Assembly (NCBI GenBank): GCA_030750865.1
Contig: JASMHE010000011.1
Coordinates: forward strand, 1 to 44,143
From: Alphaproteobacteria bacterium
GTDB lineage: Bacteria > Pseudomonadota > Alphaproteobacteria > Micavibrionales > Micavibrionaceae
Reading direction: 5' to 3'
Length of the DNA: 44,143 nucleotides
Part shown: positions 33,813 through 41,142 of the stretch, in pieces
Position numbering within the stretch: position 1 is the stretch's first letter
Layout: every line of letters begins with the position of its first letter
The notes under the pieces: model-generated
Seen by the model: the letters and a program-made list of their open reading frames with translations, nothing else
What the model was told of the DNA's origin: nothing
The model's database searches: none
Program-made: the position numbers and the translations under genes

Positions 33813-34811
33813 ATGATTGTGCTTACAGGGGCGGCCGGTTTCATCGGCTTTCACGTCGCAAAGATGCTGCTATCACAAGGTCATCATATTATCGGCATTG
33901 ATAATATGAATGATTATTATGACGTGTCCTTGAAAAAGGGGCGGCTGGCACAACTCGCACAGAACGATCAATTCCATTTCTATCAGGCCGACATCAGCGA
34001 TGCGGCAGCCATCACAGATATTTTCAAACGCCACGGCAACGACATTACCGAAATTGTGCATCTGGCCGCACAAGCGGGCGTACGCTACAGCCTTGAAAAT
34101 CCGATGGCCTACAGCGCCAGCAACCTGACCGGACAGGTCGTTATGCTCGAAGCGGCGCGCCATGCCAAACAGCTGAAACATTTTGTCTATGCCTCCAGCT
34201 CATCCGTTTATGGCGGCAATACAAAACAGCCCTTCTCGGTCGATGATCCGGTCACAAACCCCGTGTCACTTTACGCCGCCACAAAACGCGCGAGCGAACT
34301 TCTGACCCAAAGCTATGCAAATCTTTATGATATTCCGTCAACGGGCTTGCGCTTTTTCACCGTGTACGGCCCGTGGGGACGGCCCGATATGGCCTATTTC
34401 AGCTTCACCCGCGATATTCTGGACGGCAATCCCATTACCATTTTTAACAAAGGTGAAATGAAGCGCGATTTTACATGGATCGATGATTGCGTTCGCGGCA
34501 TTATCGGCGCGCTGTATAAACCGCCGGGCGGCGGCGATGATAAATATTGTCTGCACGGCACACCGCACCGCATTTTTAATCTGGGCAATAACAAGCCGGA
34601 AAAATTAATGGATTTTGTCGATGTAATCGAACAGGCCGTCGGCATCAAAGCCAACAAGAAACTGATGGACGTCATGGCCCCCGGCGATGTTGCCGAAACC
34701 TATGCCGATATTAATCCGGCCGTCGATGTGCTGGGCTATCACCCCAAAACCCCGATCAGCGAAGGCATCCCGCAATTTGTCAAATGGTATAAAGAATATT
34801 ATAAAATATAA
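33813..34811 (+). CDS. NAD-dependent nucleotide-sugar epimerase (UDP-glucuronate 4-epimerase type)
   Basis: Extended short-chain dehydrogenase, 332 aa. The NAD-binding motif is TGAAGFIGFHVAKMLL at the N-terminus. The specificity-determining DNMNDYYDVSLKKGRLAQL segment is typical of the UDP-glucuronate 4-epimerase (LspL/CapI) group. Catalytic Tyr154 and Lys158 are in SLYAATKRASE, with the SSSSVYGG serine motif before them. The likely reaction is UDP-glucuronate to UDP-galacturonate, for surface polysaccharide. The start at 33813 has AAAGGA seven bases upstream; the frame's 20 earlier codons are not needed. No other polysaccharide gene is nearby. Other epimerases of the same family cannot be fully excluded. 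Confidence 0.88.
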   Translation: MIVLTGAAGFIGFHVAKMLLSQGHHIIGIDNMNDYYDVSLKKGRLAQLAQNDQFHFYQADISDAAAITDIFKRHGNDITEIVHLAAQAGVRYSLENPMAYSASNLTGQVVMLEAARHAKQLKHFVYASSSSVYGGNTKQPFSVDDPVTNPVSLYAATKRASELLTQSYANLYDIPSTGLRFFTVYGPWGRPDMAYFSFTRDILDGNPITIFNKGEMKRDFTWIDDCVRGIIGALYKPPGGGDDKYCLHGTPHRIFNLGNNKPEKLMDFVDVIEQAVGIKANKKLMDVMAPGDVAETYADINPAVDVLGYHPKTPISEGIPQFVKWYKEYYKI

Positions 34812-35540: not shown

Positions 35541-36242
35541 TTACGGTTGTGGCACGCCGAGTGTTTGCGGCAGGTCGGCGGCGGAGACAACCTTGACACC
35601 GTTTTGTGCAAGCTGCGCATCCATATCCTGTTTGGAATCGCTCTGACCGTCTTCGGTCGGCATGCCGATGGCGCGTGTTGCATCATCAACCACAACCACC
35701 TCGAAACCGTCTTTCACAGCATCCAGACCATGCCAGCCGACACAGAAATCATAGGCAAGGCCCGTCAGCACAACGCGCGTAATGCCCGCATCATTCAATG
35801 TTTCCGTCAATGTTTTACCATTTGCAAAACGCGGCTGTGTTTTCTGGTCATTCTCATAGAACCCTGAATAGGAATCGATATCCTGATGCGTGCCTTTTTC
35901 AAGCCACAGATCGGTGTCTTGTACGATCAAATCCTTGTGGAACTTCACGCCCTCGGACCCGTCTTCACAGTGATCCGGCCACAAGACCTGTGTCCCGTAA
36001 GGCATTTCGACTGTTTCGAACGGCGCTTTGCCGTCATGGGAACTGGCAAATGAACAATGGCCGGACGGGTGTTTGTCCTGTGTCAGGACCACCAAATTGA
36101 AATGATCGCGCAGCGCGTTCACCACCGGAATAATCTCATCACCGCCATCAACAGCCAGCGCGCCGCCGGGGCAGAAATCATTCTGGGCATCAACGATAAT
36201 CAACGCTGTATCTGCTGGGGCTGTCCAATTTGCATTTGTCAT
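35541..36242 (-). CDS. pncA: Nicotinamidase
   Basis: Hydrolyses nicotinamide to nicotinate and ammonia, the entry to Preiss-Handler NAD salvage. The isochorismatase-like fold has the catalytic triad Asp18 (IIVDAQNDF), Lys116 (WLEKG) and Cys167 (AYDFCVGW). The metal site is formed by Asp56 and His58 in TQDKHPSGH and by His91. Length of 233 aa is near the E. coli enzyme (213), with a longer loop around CEDGSEGVKFHKD. AGAGGAAAAGAC precedes the ATG. It follows pncB by 80 bp of very AT-rich DNA, where TATAGAATA occurs twice. The product feeds directly into PncB. Confidence 0.95.
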   Translation of the reverse strand: MTNANWTAPADTALIIVDAQNDFCPGGALAVDGGDEIIPVVNALRDHFNLVVLTQDKHPSGHCSFASSHDGKAPFETVEMPYGTQVLWPDHCEDGSEGVKFHKDLIVQDTDLWLEKGTHQDIDSYSGFYENDQKTQPRFANGKTLTETLNDAGITRVVLTGLAYDFCVGWHGLDAVKDGFEVVVVDDATRAIGMPTEDGQSDSKQDMDAQLAQNGVKVVSAADLPQTLGVPQP

Positions 36243-36322
36243 GTCTTTTCCTCTTTTTCTTCTCTGCTTGTCTCTTTTATATTCTATATATTTTATTCTA
36301 TACGCTCTGTGTATCAGGCATC

Positions 36323-37990
36323 CTATGGCTTCGCAACGGGGTGCGGAGCGCGGACCTTTTGCTTGATACTGCCCATACGGCCCTGACGGTATTGATACAG
36401 GCTTTCTTCGATGCCCACACCGTAAATATGCGGGTTCAGGCGGCGTTTGTGCGACGGATCAAGCATCGCCAAGCTTTCCATCGCGCGGTCGCGGGCCTGA
36501 TGGATTGTTTCAAGCTCACTCACAAACACACCCTCGTTAAAGATACGCTTCAACGGACGGTATGCCGATACGCCGGTCTGGAAACGCATCTGACCTGTGA
36601 TATTGCCTTTCGGCACAGACACAATATCGCGCTCCAGTTTGCCAACCGCATCACGGCCGCCGGTTGCCGCCGCCACAGGATCGGGCGCGTTATTCTGCAG
36701 AATTGTATCGCCGTCAAACCGCAAGCTGCCATCGGCTGCCGGACATAAATAACGGATCAAATCCAGCTCACCGGGGATCGTGACTTTCACTTCGTCCTGC
36801 GACATCTTGATCACATTGCGGACAAAATCCGGATCGTTCGGGCTTTGCCCCTGCTTGATCAATTTGCGTGTTGCGTCAATTTCGGCTTGTGTCAGCCCGC
36901 TGCCATACACAGCGCCCAGCTTATACACAGCGCCCAGCGCCGGTTGCGCTCTTGATGTCACAAGATTTGTTCCGACACCCCAGACATTGACTTTACCGCC
37001 TTCATCCTTGATTTGCTGGATGGACTCCTCTTCCAGATCGTTCGATGCCACAATATTCGCATTTGTGAATCCGGCATCGTCCAGAATGGCGCGGGCCTCG
37101 ATCGACAGATAGGCAAGGTCACCGGAATCAAGACGGATACCGGCCAGTTTAATGCCCTTTTCTTTACAGGCCTGCACGGCGCGCTTTACACCTTCGACCG
37201 TGTCATAGGTATCCACTAGAAAGACACCGTTATACGGCATTGCTTCGGCATATTCCTTGAACGCATCCATTTCATCTTCGTACATCATGACAAACGCGTG
37301 GGCGAACGTGCCTTTGGTCGGGATGCCGTAATGTTTTTCGGCCAGATTATTCGATGTGCCGTCAATGCCGCCCAGATACGCGCCGCGTGTCGGTTCCAGC
37401 CCGCCGATACATTGGGCGCGGCGCAGCCCGAATTCCAGAATCGGTTCACCGTTTGTCACTTCTTTCAAACGGGCGGCCAATGTTGAAAACAGGCTTTGTG
37501 AATTGGTCGCGTTCAAAATCGCGGCCTCCACCATCAGACATTGCCACAGCGGACCATGTACGCGGTAAATCGGTTCATCACGGAAGGCAATCTCGCCTTC
37601 GGGCATGGCATCGATTGTCAGCTCACATTTGGAATTGGCGACAAAATCAATAAAATCATCGCTGTAAACGCGGTGCTCTTTGCCTGTATCCGGATCAACC
37701 GTGACTTTATTGCGCATATTTTCAATATCGCGTTCGTCGAATTCCCAATGATCACGCAGCCATTCGAAAATAATGTTCTGACCGCCGGTTAACAGAAAAG
37801 ACCCGCCAAACGGCTCTTTACGGATATAGGCATGGAACGTTGTATTCACATCATGCTTGCCTTGCGTAAAAAAGGCCTGCGACATCGTCAGCGCATACAT
37901 ATCCGACCACATGGCACTTTTATGCGCCAGCGGCTCCTCGTAATAACTATCCGTATCACGCAATGCATATTTGGAATTGATGTCCACCAT
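36323..37990 (-). CDS. pncB: Nicotinate phosphoribosyltransferase
   Basis: Joins nicotinate with PRPP to give nicotinate mononucleotide, using ATP hydrolysis. Diagnostic segments are MWSDMYALTMSQAFF near the N-terminus, EFGLRRAQCIGGLEPTRGAYLGG in the middle, VFLVDTYDTVEGVKRA, then IRLDSGDLAYLS, and WGVGTNLVTSRAQPALGAVYKL with the phosphate loop. The 555-aa form from 37990 is longer than the E. coli enzyme (400), through insertions towards the C-terminus, but resembles other long bacterial NAPRTases. This start has AGAGGGA eight bases upstream; 30 upstream codons lack support. Near residue 360 the DNA has a 16-bp tandem repeat (36905-36920 and 36923-36938) duplicating GAVY. It is transcribed from a promoter with a perfect dyad about 185 bp upstream. 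Confidence 0.95.
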   Translation of the reverse strand: MVDINSKYALRDTDSYYEEPLAHKSAMWSDMYALTMSQAFFTQGKHDVNTTFHAYIRKEPFGGSFLLTGGQNIIFEWLRDHWEFDERDIENMRNKVTVDPDTGKEHRVYSDDFIDFVANSKCELTIDAMPEGEIAFRDEPIYRVHGPLWQCLMVEAAILNATNSQSLFSTLAARLKEVTNGEPILEFGLRRAQCIGGLEPTRGAYLGGIDGTSNNLAEKHYGIPTKGTFAHAFVMMYEDEMDAFKEYAEAMPYNGVFLVDTYDTVEGVKRAVQACKEKGIKLAGIRLDSGDLAYLSIEARAILDDAGFTNANIVASNDLEEESIQQIKDEGGKVNVWGVGTNLVTSRAQPALGAVYKLGAVYGSGLTQAEIDATRKLIKQGQSPNDPDFVRNVIKMSQDEVKVTIPGELDLIRYLCPAADGSLRFDGDTILQNNAPDPVAAATGGRDAVGKLERDIVSVPKGNITGQMRFQTGVSAYRPLKRIFNEGVFVSELETIHQARDRAMESLAMLDPSHKRRLNPHIYGVGIEESLYQYRQGRMGSIKQKVRAPHPVAKP

Positions 37991-38170
37991 TGAAAATCCC
38001 TCTTTCTTCCATCGTTCTCTTTTATCGTTTGCCTTTATCACCATCTGACAGCCATCTTGTATAATGACTGGCCCGATCACACAGTTTCAACCACTCGGTT
38101 CAACCACACAGTCCCAATCGTACAGCCCCGTTTCCACAGGCCGTGTTATACCGACATTTTCCGTGTATTC

Positions 38171-38203
38171 TGACGTTATAAGAAACCGGTGCTATAACGT
38201 CAA
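38171..38203 (-). promoter_or_regulatory. Promoter of pncB-pncA overlapped by a perfect 10-12-10 operator dyad
   Basis: On the minus strand TTGACG (38203-38198), 17-bp spacer, TATAAC (38180-38175). The inverted repeat TGACGTTATA (38171-38180) and TATAACGTCA (38193-38202) overlaps both promoter hexamers, with half-site centres 22 bp apart, about two helical turns. This is the layout of a repressor operator. The half-site ATAACGTCA recurs before nadD (40479-40487). Confidence 0.62.
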
Positions 38204-38235
38204 CTGAATTATGGATAATCTATGCCGTGCGGCAC

Positions 38236-39129
38236 TCATCCGAATGTCAGACGGGCTTTATGATAACAATACCGTACCAGACTGACCGGTCCTTGTACAT
38301 CACGCCACTGTGATGTCCGCCAGACATTTTCATCCGGATTATGATGCATCAACAATGTGGCCGTTTTATCTTGCGCGCGGCGAATCGTCAGTGATTTAAT
38401 CGGGCTATCCATATCATAGGCTGTATAGGCAACCCCGCTGCCAAACCCGACCCCCAGCGGCCGCTTGTTATAGGTACGCGGCGGCGCTGTAATCGTAATC
38501 ACCGTATCAGGATCAAAAACATGTTCACCGAAATGACGCGGCTTATACGGCGTAATCGCGCTGAGCGTCACTCTATCATTCCGCAAACTGATCGGACGGC
38601 CGCCATTGGATAAATGATATCCTGTCGAAGCCAGCGGCGTGGCCACCACCAGTCCGTTTGACCCGATACGCGGCATATCCAGCATTGCGTTACCGTTAAA
38701 TTCCGCTTTCAGGTCCAGCGTCGTTCCGCCATTGACCTTTAATTTTTCGATCACAATATCGGCGCAGGTATGATGCGTTTCCGTATGGCCGTTTTCAAAT
38801 TCGACCGTGCCCTCCAGCACCGTCAGATCATACGGCGTGCAATCATTCACAATATCCATCAGATTAGAAGCGCCAACCACCTTGTGACAGGTCAAAAAGC
38901 CTTCGCTGGATTTGATACCGGGCATTGTCATGGCAAAAACGGGCACGCCGTTTGCGTGATCCAGCGCGTACAAAGCCGTGCCATCACCGCCAATGGCGAC
39001 AATCAGATCGGCTTCGTCCGGGGCGGCTTGATTGAATAATGCGGTCATTTGATGGGCGAACGCACACACATCGGGTTTGTGCGGGTCCCAGATGAAGTGG
39101 ATTTTTTTCTGTGCGGCGCCCCTGCTCAT
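38236..39129 (-). CDS. nadK: NAD kinase (divergent)
   Basis: Predicted to phosphorylate NAD to NADP. It has the GGDGT motif at residues 47-51 (IVAIGGDGTALYAL) and the second NAD-kinase signature at residues about 158-178 (SNGLVVATPLASTGYHLSNGG), where most enzymes read TPTGSTAY; here the Gly-Ser order is altered to LASTGY. A ligand loop MPGIKSSEGFL matches the usual INxGxLGFL. The conserved His-containing C-terminal segment is present (AITPYKPRHFGEHVFD). Length of 297 aa is right. The divergence makes annotation as a NAD-kinase family member safer than a proven NadK, though the position among NAD genes supports it. It lies 123 bp after prs. Confidence 0.82.
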   Translation of the reverse strand: MSRGAAQKKIHFIWDPHKPDVCAFAHQMTALFNQAAPDEADLIVAIGGDGTALYALDHANGVPVFAMTMPGIKSSEGFLTCHKVVGASNLMDIVNDCTPYDLTVLEGTVEFENGHTETHHTCADIVIEKLKVNGGTTLDLKAEFNGNAMLDMPRIGSNGLVVATPLASTGYHLSNGGRPISLRNDRVTLSAITPYKPRHFGEHVFDPDTVITITAPPRTYNKRPLGVGFGSGVAYTAYDMDSPIKSLTIRRAQDKTATLLMHHNPDENVWRTSQWRDVQGPVSLVRYCYHKARLTFG

Positions 39130-39252
39130 ACAATAATCCTGCTGTTATCTCATGCGCTTTTATACCGTGCGCTTTCGTTTGATGCCCATGCCCCATTCCG
39201 TGCGGGGCCGTATCACGATCATCCTATACCGACCGTTCATGATGTCATTCAC

Positions 39253-40386
39253 TTACGGTTTCGGTGCCGGGGCATCGTCTTTTTTCTGCATCACCGGATG
39301 CGTCATAATATCTTCGGTAATATGTTTCCACAACAACGGCGCAAAATCCATGATCTTCACGCGGGATTTCACCACATCTTCCAGATATTCACTTTCCAGA
39401 TTGTGGATGCGTTCGCGCTGCGAAATCGCATTGGACACATAAATCTGTTCAAATAGCGGCGCGCCGTTTTTGGCTTTGGCTTCGAACATTTTTGTCAGAC
39501 CGTCACTGCCGAACGTACCGGCTGCGGCCATTGCAAAAATGCGTTCCGCGCCTTTGCGTTTTAATTCACGCGCACAGCCGATGGCCGTGCCGCATGTGTT
39601 GAAAATATCATCAATAATCAGCACGTCTTTGCCCTCAACATCACCTTCCATTGATTGCACAGACGATGTGGACGGGCCGATACCTGCGTTATTGCGGTCT
39701 TTGCTGGCCGAGGCCCGCTCTGTAAAGCCTGTGGCCTGACGCAGTTTTTCCGCCCGCGCATCTGCGCCCATATCCGGATTCACAATGACCAGATCCTCAA
39801 TACCCAGCGCTTTGGCATATTCCGCATAGACTTCGGTCGGGTCCACATTAATCACGTTATCCGCGCCAAATTCATCTTGATAAAAGCCGAGCGCCATATC
39901 GGAATGGATATCGACTGTGGAATAACCGTCTGCACCGCCGAATTTCTTATACGCGGCCAGTGTTTTCGCACTGACGGATTCCAGATAAAATTCACCCGTG
40001 CGCTGTCCGTCTTCATCACGGATTTCGGTCGGCTTGTCCTGACGCATATATCCGGCATAGGGTTCAACAAGCCAGATCGGCCCCGCCCCTGCATCTTTTA
40101 ATGTGCGCAACGTAATCAGCGTCCGCAGAGCATATTCATCGGCCGAGGCCCGGATGGTCGTGCCGCTGGATTGCACCAACACCACAGGTTCACCCTTCAG
40201 ATCATCGGCGCTCACATCACGATAGACATCATTGCCGCCGATTGTCTGCATGCGCGCGAACGATTCCTTGTCCTTGAACGCGGCAATACTGGCGCGTACC
40301 ATTTCAAGATCGGACCCGGCTGTCGTCTTTTTATTAAAGTAACGGAACAAGGCCGGATCGGCGCTGTTGCGGAGAAGTATCTTCAT
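39253..40386 (-). CDS. Ribose-phosphate pyrophosphokinase (divergent PRPP synthetase)
   Basis: Makes PRPP from ribose 5-phosphate and ATP; PRPP is the co-substrate of PncB and HisG in this window. The ATP-binding region has RQDK at residues 115-118, and the metal-binding His161 is in VDIHSD. The nucleotide flexible-loop part and VIVNPDMGADARAEKL follow. The PRPP-binding loop VLIIDDIFNTCGTA is at residues about 255-268. At 377 aa it is longer than the usual 310-320 aa, with an extra stretch after RQDK (PTEIRDEDGQRTGEFYLES) and a polar C-terminal tail. This looks like a divergent paralogue, so the housekeeping prs is likely elsewhere. It has its own promoter (TTGACA, 17 bp, TATGAA) and heads the minus-strand NAD genes. 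Confidence 0.85.
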   Translation of the reverse strand: MKILLRNSADPALFRYFNKKTTAGSDLEMVRASIAAFKDKESFARMQTIGGNDVYRDVSADDLKGEPVVLVQSSGTTIRASADEYALRTLITLRTLKDAGAGPIWLVEPYAGYMRQDKPTEIRDEDGQRTGEFYLESVSAKTLAAYKKFGGADGYSTVDIHSDMALGFYQDEFGADNVINVDPTEVYAEYAKALGIEDLVIVNPDMGADARAEKLRQATGFTERASASKDRNNAGIGPSTSSVQSMEGDVEGKDVLIIDDIFNTCGTAIGCARELKRKGAERIFAMAAAGTFGSDGLTKMFEAKAKNGAPLFEQIYVSNAISQRERIHNLESEYLEDVVKSRVKIMDFAPLLWKHITEDIMTHPVMQKKDDAPAPKP

Positions 40387-40416
40387 AACATATATGCCCT
40401 TTTTATCGATGCCTTC

Positions 40417-40445
40417 TTCATAAGGAACTATTTGTTTTATGTCAA
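40417..40445 (-). promoter_or_regulatory. Promoter of the prs-nadK unit
   Basis: Minus strand TTGACA (40445-40440), 17-bp spacer, TATGAA (40422-40417). It lies in the 105-bp divergent region between the PRPP synthetase gene and nadD. Confidence 0.6.
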
Positions 40446-40462
40446 TCTAATTTTCATGGACA

Positions 40463-40487
40463 TGACGCGGCTTTTTGCATAACGTCA
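40463..40487 (+). promoter_or_regulatory. Operator-like half-site before nadD
   Basis: ATAACGTCA (40479-40487) equals nine of ten bases of the pncB dyad half-site, and TGACG (40463-40467) faces it. The spacing between TGACG and CGTCA is shorter (15 bp) than in the pncB dyad (22 bp). It ends four bases before the nadD ATG. Confidence 0.35.
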
Positions 40488-40491
40488 TTCC

Positions 40492-41142
40492 ATGACAACA
40501 GAAAACACCACCGCAAAAAAACGCATCGCCATTTACGGCGGATCGTTCAACCCGCCGCACGAGGGGCATTTAAACGTCCTGCGGCATATTCATCAAGCCT
40601 TAGGCGCGGATGAAATCTGGATGGAATTTTCCGAAAACCCGTTCAAGGATGCCGCCGATTACGTGTCCTTAAAAGACCGCTTCAACATGGCGGCCCTGCT
40701 CTGGCAAAGCCAGCCGGACCTGCCGTTAAAATTCACTGCCATCGGCACGCAAACCGGATCGAACCGCACGATTGATGTGTTGCGTCACTGCAAAGCCACC
40801 CACCCCGATCACGAGCTGATCTGGGTGATGGGATCAGACAGTCTGAACGATTTACCACAATGGACAGCCGCCGCATCTTTGCTCGAAGAATTTAAAATCG
40901 CCGTGCTCAAGCGTGACGGATCGCCCCTGCAACCTGCAGAGATGCTGGCCGCGCACGAACGCACCGCCGATCATTTCGATGACCCAGCCACAACAGGCTG
41001 GACCGTGCTGAACGTGCCGACAGGACCGGATATCTCATCGTCTTTCTACCGCGCCGCCTTTGCCAAAGACCCGCACATGCAAACCTCGGCCATCTTTACG
41101 CCCGTAGCCAATTATATCCGCGATCGCGGCTTATATTTGTAA
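40492..41142 (+). CDS. nadD: Nicotinate-nucleotide adenylyltransferase
   Basis: Transfers AMP from ATP to nicotinate mononucleotide to give deamido-NAD, the step after PncB. The nucleotidyltransferase motif GGSFNPPHEGH is at residues 16-26 (T/HxGH type). Further NadD features are VMGSDSLNDLPQW and the C-terminal ISSSFYR motif (ISSTxIR in most members). Length of 216 aa is typical. No strong Shine-Dalgarno is seen; an operator-like half-site occupies the usual place. It is divergent from the PRPP synthetase gene and completes a salvage chain in which only NAD synthetase is missing. In many bacteria nadD instead lies beside obg, proA or rsfS, so this neighbourhood is notable. Confidence 0.94.
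   Translation: MTTENTTAKKRIAIYGGSFNPPHEGHLNVLRHIHQALGADEIWMEFSENPFKDAADYVSLKDRFNMAALLWQSQPDLPLKFTAIGTQTGSNRTIDVLRHCKATHPDHELIWVMGSDSLNDLPQWTAAASLLEEFKIAVLKRDGSPLQPAEMLAAHERTADHFDDPATTGWTVLNVPTGPDISSSFYRAAFAKDPHMQTSAIFTPVANYIRDRGLYL

Follow-up and report, generated by a model that had tools for sequence, protein, structure and literature searches.

The short DNA between nadK and pncB in an alphaproteobacterium of the family Micavibrionaceae (GCA_030750865.1, contig JASMHE010000011.1) contains a perfect inverted repeat that overlaps promoter-like hexamers. This raises the question of whether the repeat is a repressor operator, as a sequence-only reading had suggested, perhaps one that belongs to a known regulator of NAD metabolism, or whether the symmetry has another origin. 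The window, i.e. the whole stretch of DNA that was analysed, comprises positions 1 to 44,143 of the contig. The repeat sits in a prs-nadK-pncB-pncA/nadD cluster, within the 245-bp gap between nadK and pncB. The genes and the two arms of the repeat are as follows.

35541..36242, minus strand: pncA, nicotinamidase (NF008623, 1.2e-47, below the curated cut-off)
36323..37990, minus strand: pncB, nicotinate phosphoribosyltransferase (TIGR01513, over cut-off)
38171..38180, plus strand: left arm of the dyad, TGACGTTATA
38193..38202, plus strand: right arm of the dyad, TATAACGTCA
38236..39129, minus strand: nadK, NAD kinase, the upstream gene (NF003406, 5.2e-24, below the curated cut-off)
39253..40386, minus strand: prs, ribose-phosphate diphosphokinase (TIGR01251, over cut-off)
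40492..41142, plus strand: nadD, nicotinate-nucleotide adenylyltransferase, divergent from prs (TIGR00482, over cut-off)

The likely start of pncB is the ATG at 37990; its open frame extends to 38080.

The dyad TGACGTTATA-N12-TATAACGTCA, equivalent to TGACGTTATAAGAAACCGGTGCTATAACGTCA, occupies 38171–38202, and the perfect 10-12-10 symmetry reported from the letters is thus borne out; the position 38203 given there as its end belongs to the minus-strand -35 element, whose first T it is. The arm starts are 22 bp apart, or ~2.1 helical turns, in agreement with the earlier estimate of about two. There is no other match to TGACGTTATAAGAAACCGGTGCTATAACGTCA in the window at up to three mismatches, and none was found in 100 shuffles. 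Perfect 10-bp arms with a loop of 0–30 are listed seven times in the window (two listings being one nested repeat), and shuffled windows have a mean of 2.0 of the same class (60 shuffles), or 0.03 when the loop is exactly 12. Since about two comparable inverted repeats arise per shuffled window, the dyad by itself is unremarkable.

What sets the site apart is the arrangement of hexamers within it. Promoter-like elements are found on both strands.

38198..38203, minus strand: predicted -35, TTGACG, facing pncB (10/12 together with its -10; 17-bp spacer)
38175..38180, minus strand: predicted -10, TATAAC, facing pncB (from promoter scoring)
38170..38175, plus strand: predicted -35, CTGACG, of the mirror promoter, facing the nadK 3′ end, antisense (from promoter scoring)
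38193..38198, plus strand: predicted -10, TATAAC, of the mirror promoter (from promoter scoring)

The TTGACG-17-TATAAC promoter that was said to overlap both arms and to face pncB is therefore present as hexamers on the minus strand. Scores out of 12 refer to the E. coli hexamer consensus; with a spacer of 16–18 bp, the E. coli-type sigma-70 pair scores 10/12 on the minus strand and 9/12 on the plus strand. Each arm consists of a -35 element less its first base and of the opposite strand's -10 element in reverse complement, the two overlapping by one base, and hence all ten arm bases are hexamer bases. Inward, the symmetry extends exactly to the edge of the -10; outward, it falls one base short of the edge of the -35. 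With transcription assumed to start at the usual distance, 7 nt behind the -10, the predicted pncB leader is ~177 nt long. This predicted leader also contains, at 38078–38117 of the window, short 13-nt direct repeats that are imperfect.

The Caulobacter RpoD consensus, given as TTGaCgS / GCtANAWC in PMC8144410, places the plus-strand promoter at 13/15, tied best in the window, where seven pairs in all reach 13, and the minus-strand promoter at 12/15, a score shared by 58 window pairs. The plus-strand -10 with its two preceding bases, GCTATAAC, is a full match to the -10 consensus GCTANAWC. The form TATAAC is, as far as aligned sequences tell, at home in the family of the host: the aligned prs promoter reads, by eye, TTGACA-17-TATAAC in three family genomes (G034, G114, G115) and TTGACC-17-TATAAG in G001. 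A simple promoter scan does not list the 38171–38202 site because it demands T as the last base of the -10; it lists TTGAAA-18-CATTAT at 38090–38061 instead, a result of which 1.0 is expected in shuffles.

The coupling of dyad and promoter was compared with 400 shuffled windows, which contained 866 dyads. None of the 866 has a promoter of at least 10/12 spanning both arms, as the 10/12 site at 38171 does; five reach at least 9/12 on a strand, and only one does so on both. The dyad upstream of pncB scores 10 on one strand and 9 on the other, and another dyad of the window, at 33884, scores 9 and 7. This comparison was framed post hoc, once the site had been seen, and is accordingly supportive and not proof. 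The combination of a dyad with a promoter across both arms is nevertheless rare, unlike the dyad by itself.

The explanation favoured here, at a probability of roughly 0.45, is that pncB-pncA have an internal promoter of the sigma-70 type at this site, built as its own mirror image. It draws on what is observed at the locus: the letters themselves, hexamers that match the consensus on either strand, the neighbouring genes and the absence of recurrence. The promoter would be placed in the widened gap behind nadK, and the 34 bp from 38170 to 38203 would carry two interleaved promoters, each with a 17-bp spacer. Polymerase could engage the site in one orientation or the other, presumably not in both at once. 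Leftward transcription would yield the pncB-pncA message, and rightward transcription would run in antisense into the nadK 3′ end. As the arms are built of -35 and -10 elements, the symmetry would be a product of the promoter elements, and no repressor would be needed. The plus-strand promoter has no gene in sense behind it, which leaves a selected use for that promoter unclear. Moreover, a near-consensus promoter on both strands is unlikely unless the symmetry was selected for another reason, e.g. by a dimeric repressor.

The gene order is partly shared with relatives. In G001, the only genome of the same genus that was compared, all five cluster genes are together, and four of the five are together in G034, G114 and G115 (without nadK) and in G079 (without prs). 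In these five genomes pncB follows nadK or prs. Measured between aligned ends, the gap before pncB is ~24 bp in G079 and roughly 100–120 bp in G001. A third copy of the 9-mer half-site ATAACGTCA is found at 40479–40487, four bases before the nadD start codon; apart from it, the window has this 9-mer in the dyad only. The prs/nadD intergenic region also displays a footprint at 40440–40462, GTCAA ... GACATA/G, with 12–15 bp between GTC and GAC, aligned in five genomes. It resembles two -35 elements placed back to back, for prs and nadD promoters that diverge, and is conserved, unlike the dyad upstream of pncB.

A genome-wide search for the dyad had been proposed as a check, and it gave the operator no help: the host genome has no second copy within two mismatches, and no second dyad of 8-bp half-sites with gaps of 6–30. 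The 10-mer half-site occurs five times, two of these being the dyad, vs eight for a reversed control; its frequency is background. Searches with the complete dyad, with its half-site and with variable gaps thus disclose nothing else noteworthy in the host genome, and a regulon defined by recurrence was set aside. The sole match at three mismatches, C13:73348, falls within a reading frame of locus L002. A repeated element was also considered and rejected: a search with 244 bases of the gap returned no second copy, only chance matches of 17–20 bases.

Conservation in relatives was the other check proposed. The dyad is absent from all 15 other pncB upstream regions, which come from 14 genomes and include that of the same-genus genome G001; these regions were anchored on the ends of protein alignments, not on proven start codons. 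The nearest is that of G102, with five mismatches of 20, followed by one with seven; the remainder have at least eight. Five genomes with weak, partial pncB-like matches only (G018, G038, G050, G051, G054) and loci L037–L039, which are the same records as G047, G046 and G045, were left out of the comparison. The check thus goes against conservation, yet it is not decisive because pncB is 47–66% identical and many of the regions are differently arranged. Among 58 relatives searched at up to three mismatches, matches occur in 14 genomes, the host included. Besides the dyad itself there are 14 such loci, nine inside long reading frames and five outside (L004, L008, L011, L014, L015; by eye).

A relaxed form of the dyad, searched at up to two mismatches in 104 family genomes, is found at 18 sites, the host's included, vs eight for the reversed control; the pattern was derived from the host dyad and favours promoter-like matches. 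Eight of the 18 are variants, some of them one-sided, of one longer palindrome with inner GGA/TCC, TGACATTATAGGA-N6-TCCTATAATGTCA. This palindrome was rejected as an operator shared with the host dyad: its neighbours look unrelated to NAD and the dyad does not have the inner GGA/TCC. Complete or partial, it is present at L004, L008, L045, L046, L047, L048, L050 and G011:C5:34659, in promoter-like sequence near apparently unrelated genes. One may guess that it serves as operator for the regulator of a mobile element or of a toxin-antitoxin system.

NrtR, NadQ and NiaR had been named as known NAD-related regulators, with no claim that the dyad belongs to any of them; the idea that one of them acts here gains no support. 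The winged helix domain of NrtR is homologous in NadQ, according to the available text of PMC5343134. NrtR was judged by this domain and by two published motifs, mycobacterial and streptococcal. The domain (NrtR_WHD, PF21906), detected in 4/14 control genomes, was not detected in the host genome, in the six other genomes of the same family that were searched (seven with the host), or in the order-level genomes G041 (73% complete), G045 and G047. It is present in two of the 12 genomes searched, the order-level G040 and G046. The dyad has no resemblance to the NadQ consensus ttATRCTCannntGAGYATaa as it appears in PMC5343134, a comparison that the sequence-only reading had called for, and the 17-bp core of that consensus has no match within three mismatches in the 500 bp before host pncB. 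NadQ-like sites within one mismatch of the core are found just upstream of pncB in three genomes, G040, G041 and G046 (two in the last), and the remaining pncB upstream regions show none within three mismatches. By locus, NadQ-like sites lie upstream of pncB at L020 (two), L021 and L024, and a protein of ~330 aa with the NrtR winged helix at its C-terminus is encoded in the genomes from which L020 and L021 come. The G040 and G046 proteins have no NCBIfam match beyond this C-terminal domain, and that of G046 has no Nudix family match in Pfam; in having no further matches they are like NadQ as described in the part of PMC5343134 available.

A NadQ regulon in the host genome was rejected as well. 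There is no exact site, and the two sites with one mismatch are both inside long frames, which look by eye like those of an NADH-quinone oxidoreductase subunit and excinuclease UvrC. At up to two mismatches the NadQ motif has 23 matches in the host genome vs six for the reversed control. The mycobacterial and streptococcal NrtR motifs, compared by eye as they appear in PMC6800001, do not resemble the dyad. The NiaR motifs are given as TGT-N4-ACA or ACA-N5-TGT in the accessible portion of PMC7713382, and by eye the dyad contains neither TGT nor ACA. From these sequence comparisons, action of NrtR, NadQ or NiaR at the dyad appears unlikely, NiaR being judged by motif alone.

An operator need not belong to a known regulator. 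The dyad could be the single target of a yet-unknown dimeric repressor that covers the pncB-pncA promoter, in line with the general behaviour of dimeric repressors. Two perfect arms of 10 bp that span the -35 and -10 at a distance of about two helical turns are what such a protein might be expected to recognize, and ATAACGTCA recurs as a half-site just before nadD (40479–40487). Control of pncB transcription also seems to occur in the order, given that G040 and G046 have both NadQ-like sites before pncB and the matching winged-helix domain. The genome at large speaks against it: no second dyad exists at up to two mismatches or with gaps of 6–30, the half-site count is five vs eight in the control, no NrtR/NadQ domain was detected in the host genome, and the 15 other pncB upstream regions do not have the dyad, that of G102 coming nearest at 5/20 mismatches. 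Nor is a regulator gene recognized in the window: none of its 44 reading frames of at least 80 residues was recognized as a DNA-binding regulator when five were scanned with NCBIfam and 39 with Pfam, 13 of the 39 being without a family match. A single-target operator is on balance unlikely, while deserving serious attention.

Perhaps the symmetry has no meaning, and a one-way promoter, or no promoter at all, happens to hold an inverted repeat. Roughly two perfect dyads of such size are expected per shuffled window, the window has 16 promoter-like pairs of at least 10/12, the dyad at 33884 likewise has 9/12 on one strand, and the pncB-upstream dyad is not conserved. Against this, a dyad together with a 10/12 promoter across both arms was never encountered in the 400 shuffled windows, and the site is intergenic, in the right place and in the right direction; coincidence is considered improbable. 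Still less probable is an RNA hairpin in a nadK-pncB read-through message that would affect its processing or stability. The minus-strand RNA can form a hairpin of 12 pairs, including two G-U end pairs, at -11.1 kcal/mol (z -2.93), which 3/200 shuffles equal, and it begins ~32 nt behind the nadK stop. An intrinsic terminator, defined by a hairpin and a U run, was sought in 37900–38400 and no terminator-like site was found there; Rfam has no match in the gap with an E of 5 or less, and the hairpin would leave the promoter hexamers unexplained. A known RNA was rejected also for the wider region 36000–40700, where the single Rfam match (E 2.8) is at chance level and outside the gap.

The mirror-image promoter reading leads to the question of whether such elements recur. 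Eight of the 17 non-host family sites were scored for promoters, and the dyads of like outer form at five of these eight loci have high scores on both strands (plus/minus: G066 12/11, G016 11/11, G031 10/11, G011 10/11, G058 9/12); the other three are G006 12/9, G081 8/10 and G079 8/8. Viral contigs that have the dyad's register fill the two free positions with A and T in 5/5 cases, as the promoter consensus would. A preference for this register in the viral contigs was not seen, with five matches vs 5, 2, 4 and 1 for other arrangements, counts that carry no computed chance expectation and in some sets include near-identical or reverse-complement copies. There is a slim chance that interleaved mirror promoters are a recurring control unit in the family, which here, with polymerase in one orientation shutting out the other, would pit the pncB-pncA message against an RNA antisense to nadK and so couple NAD salvage to the conversion of NAD to NADP.

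If the mirror-promoter reading is true, finding a perfect palindrome within promoter DNA does not prove that an operator is present, as two interleaved promoters would produce an identical pattern, and operator calls made from dyad scans would need a check for interleaved promoters. As to the family, some members have the NAD salvage cluster, and the NadQ-type regulator of the order was not detected in the seven genomes searched.

The NadQ regulon is among the nearest known systems: in the accessible text of PMC5343134 it too involves a palindrome at NAD genes in Alphaproteobacteria. The dyad differs from it in word and spacing, and the regulator domain was not detected in the host genome. Caulobacter RpoD promoters are closely matched by both strands of the dyad; in what PMC8144410 presents of them they are not described as symmetrical, and one strand suffices for a promoter. 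A literature search on overlapping, divergent and palindromic promoters returned, among the matches listed, divergent promoters that overlap in plasmids and no title that describes the geometry of the dyad, which does not prove its absence.

The bidirectional sigma-70 promoters of E. coli and Salmonella (Warman, Grainger and colleagues; PMC12825309, PMC10268837) have, in the available text of these papers, a shared -10 element and starts 7–25 bp apart, mostly 18. The dyad's -10 elements are separate, each touching the opposite -35, and its predicted starts are ~37 bp apart; by coordinates it falls outside the definition in PMC10268837 of starts 7–25 bp apart with overlapping -10 elements. The likenesses, as far as these papers are available, are nevertheless several: pseudo-symmetrical DNA that polymerase can engage in two orientations, one binding event excluding the other, and a second RNA that in the known promoters is often antisense and non-coding, as the second RNA predicted for the dyad would be.
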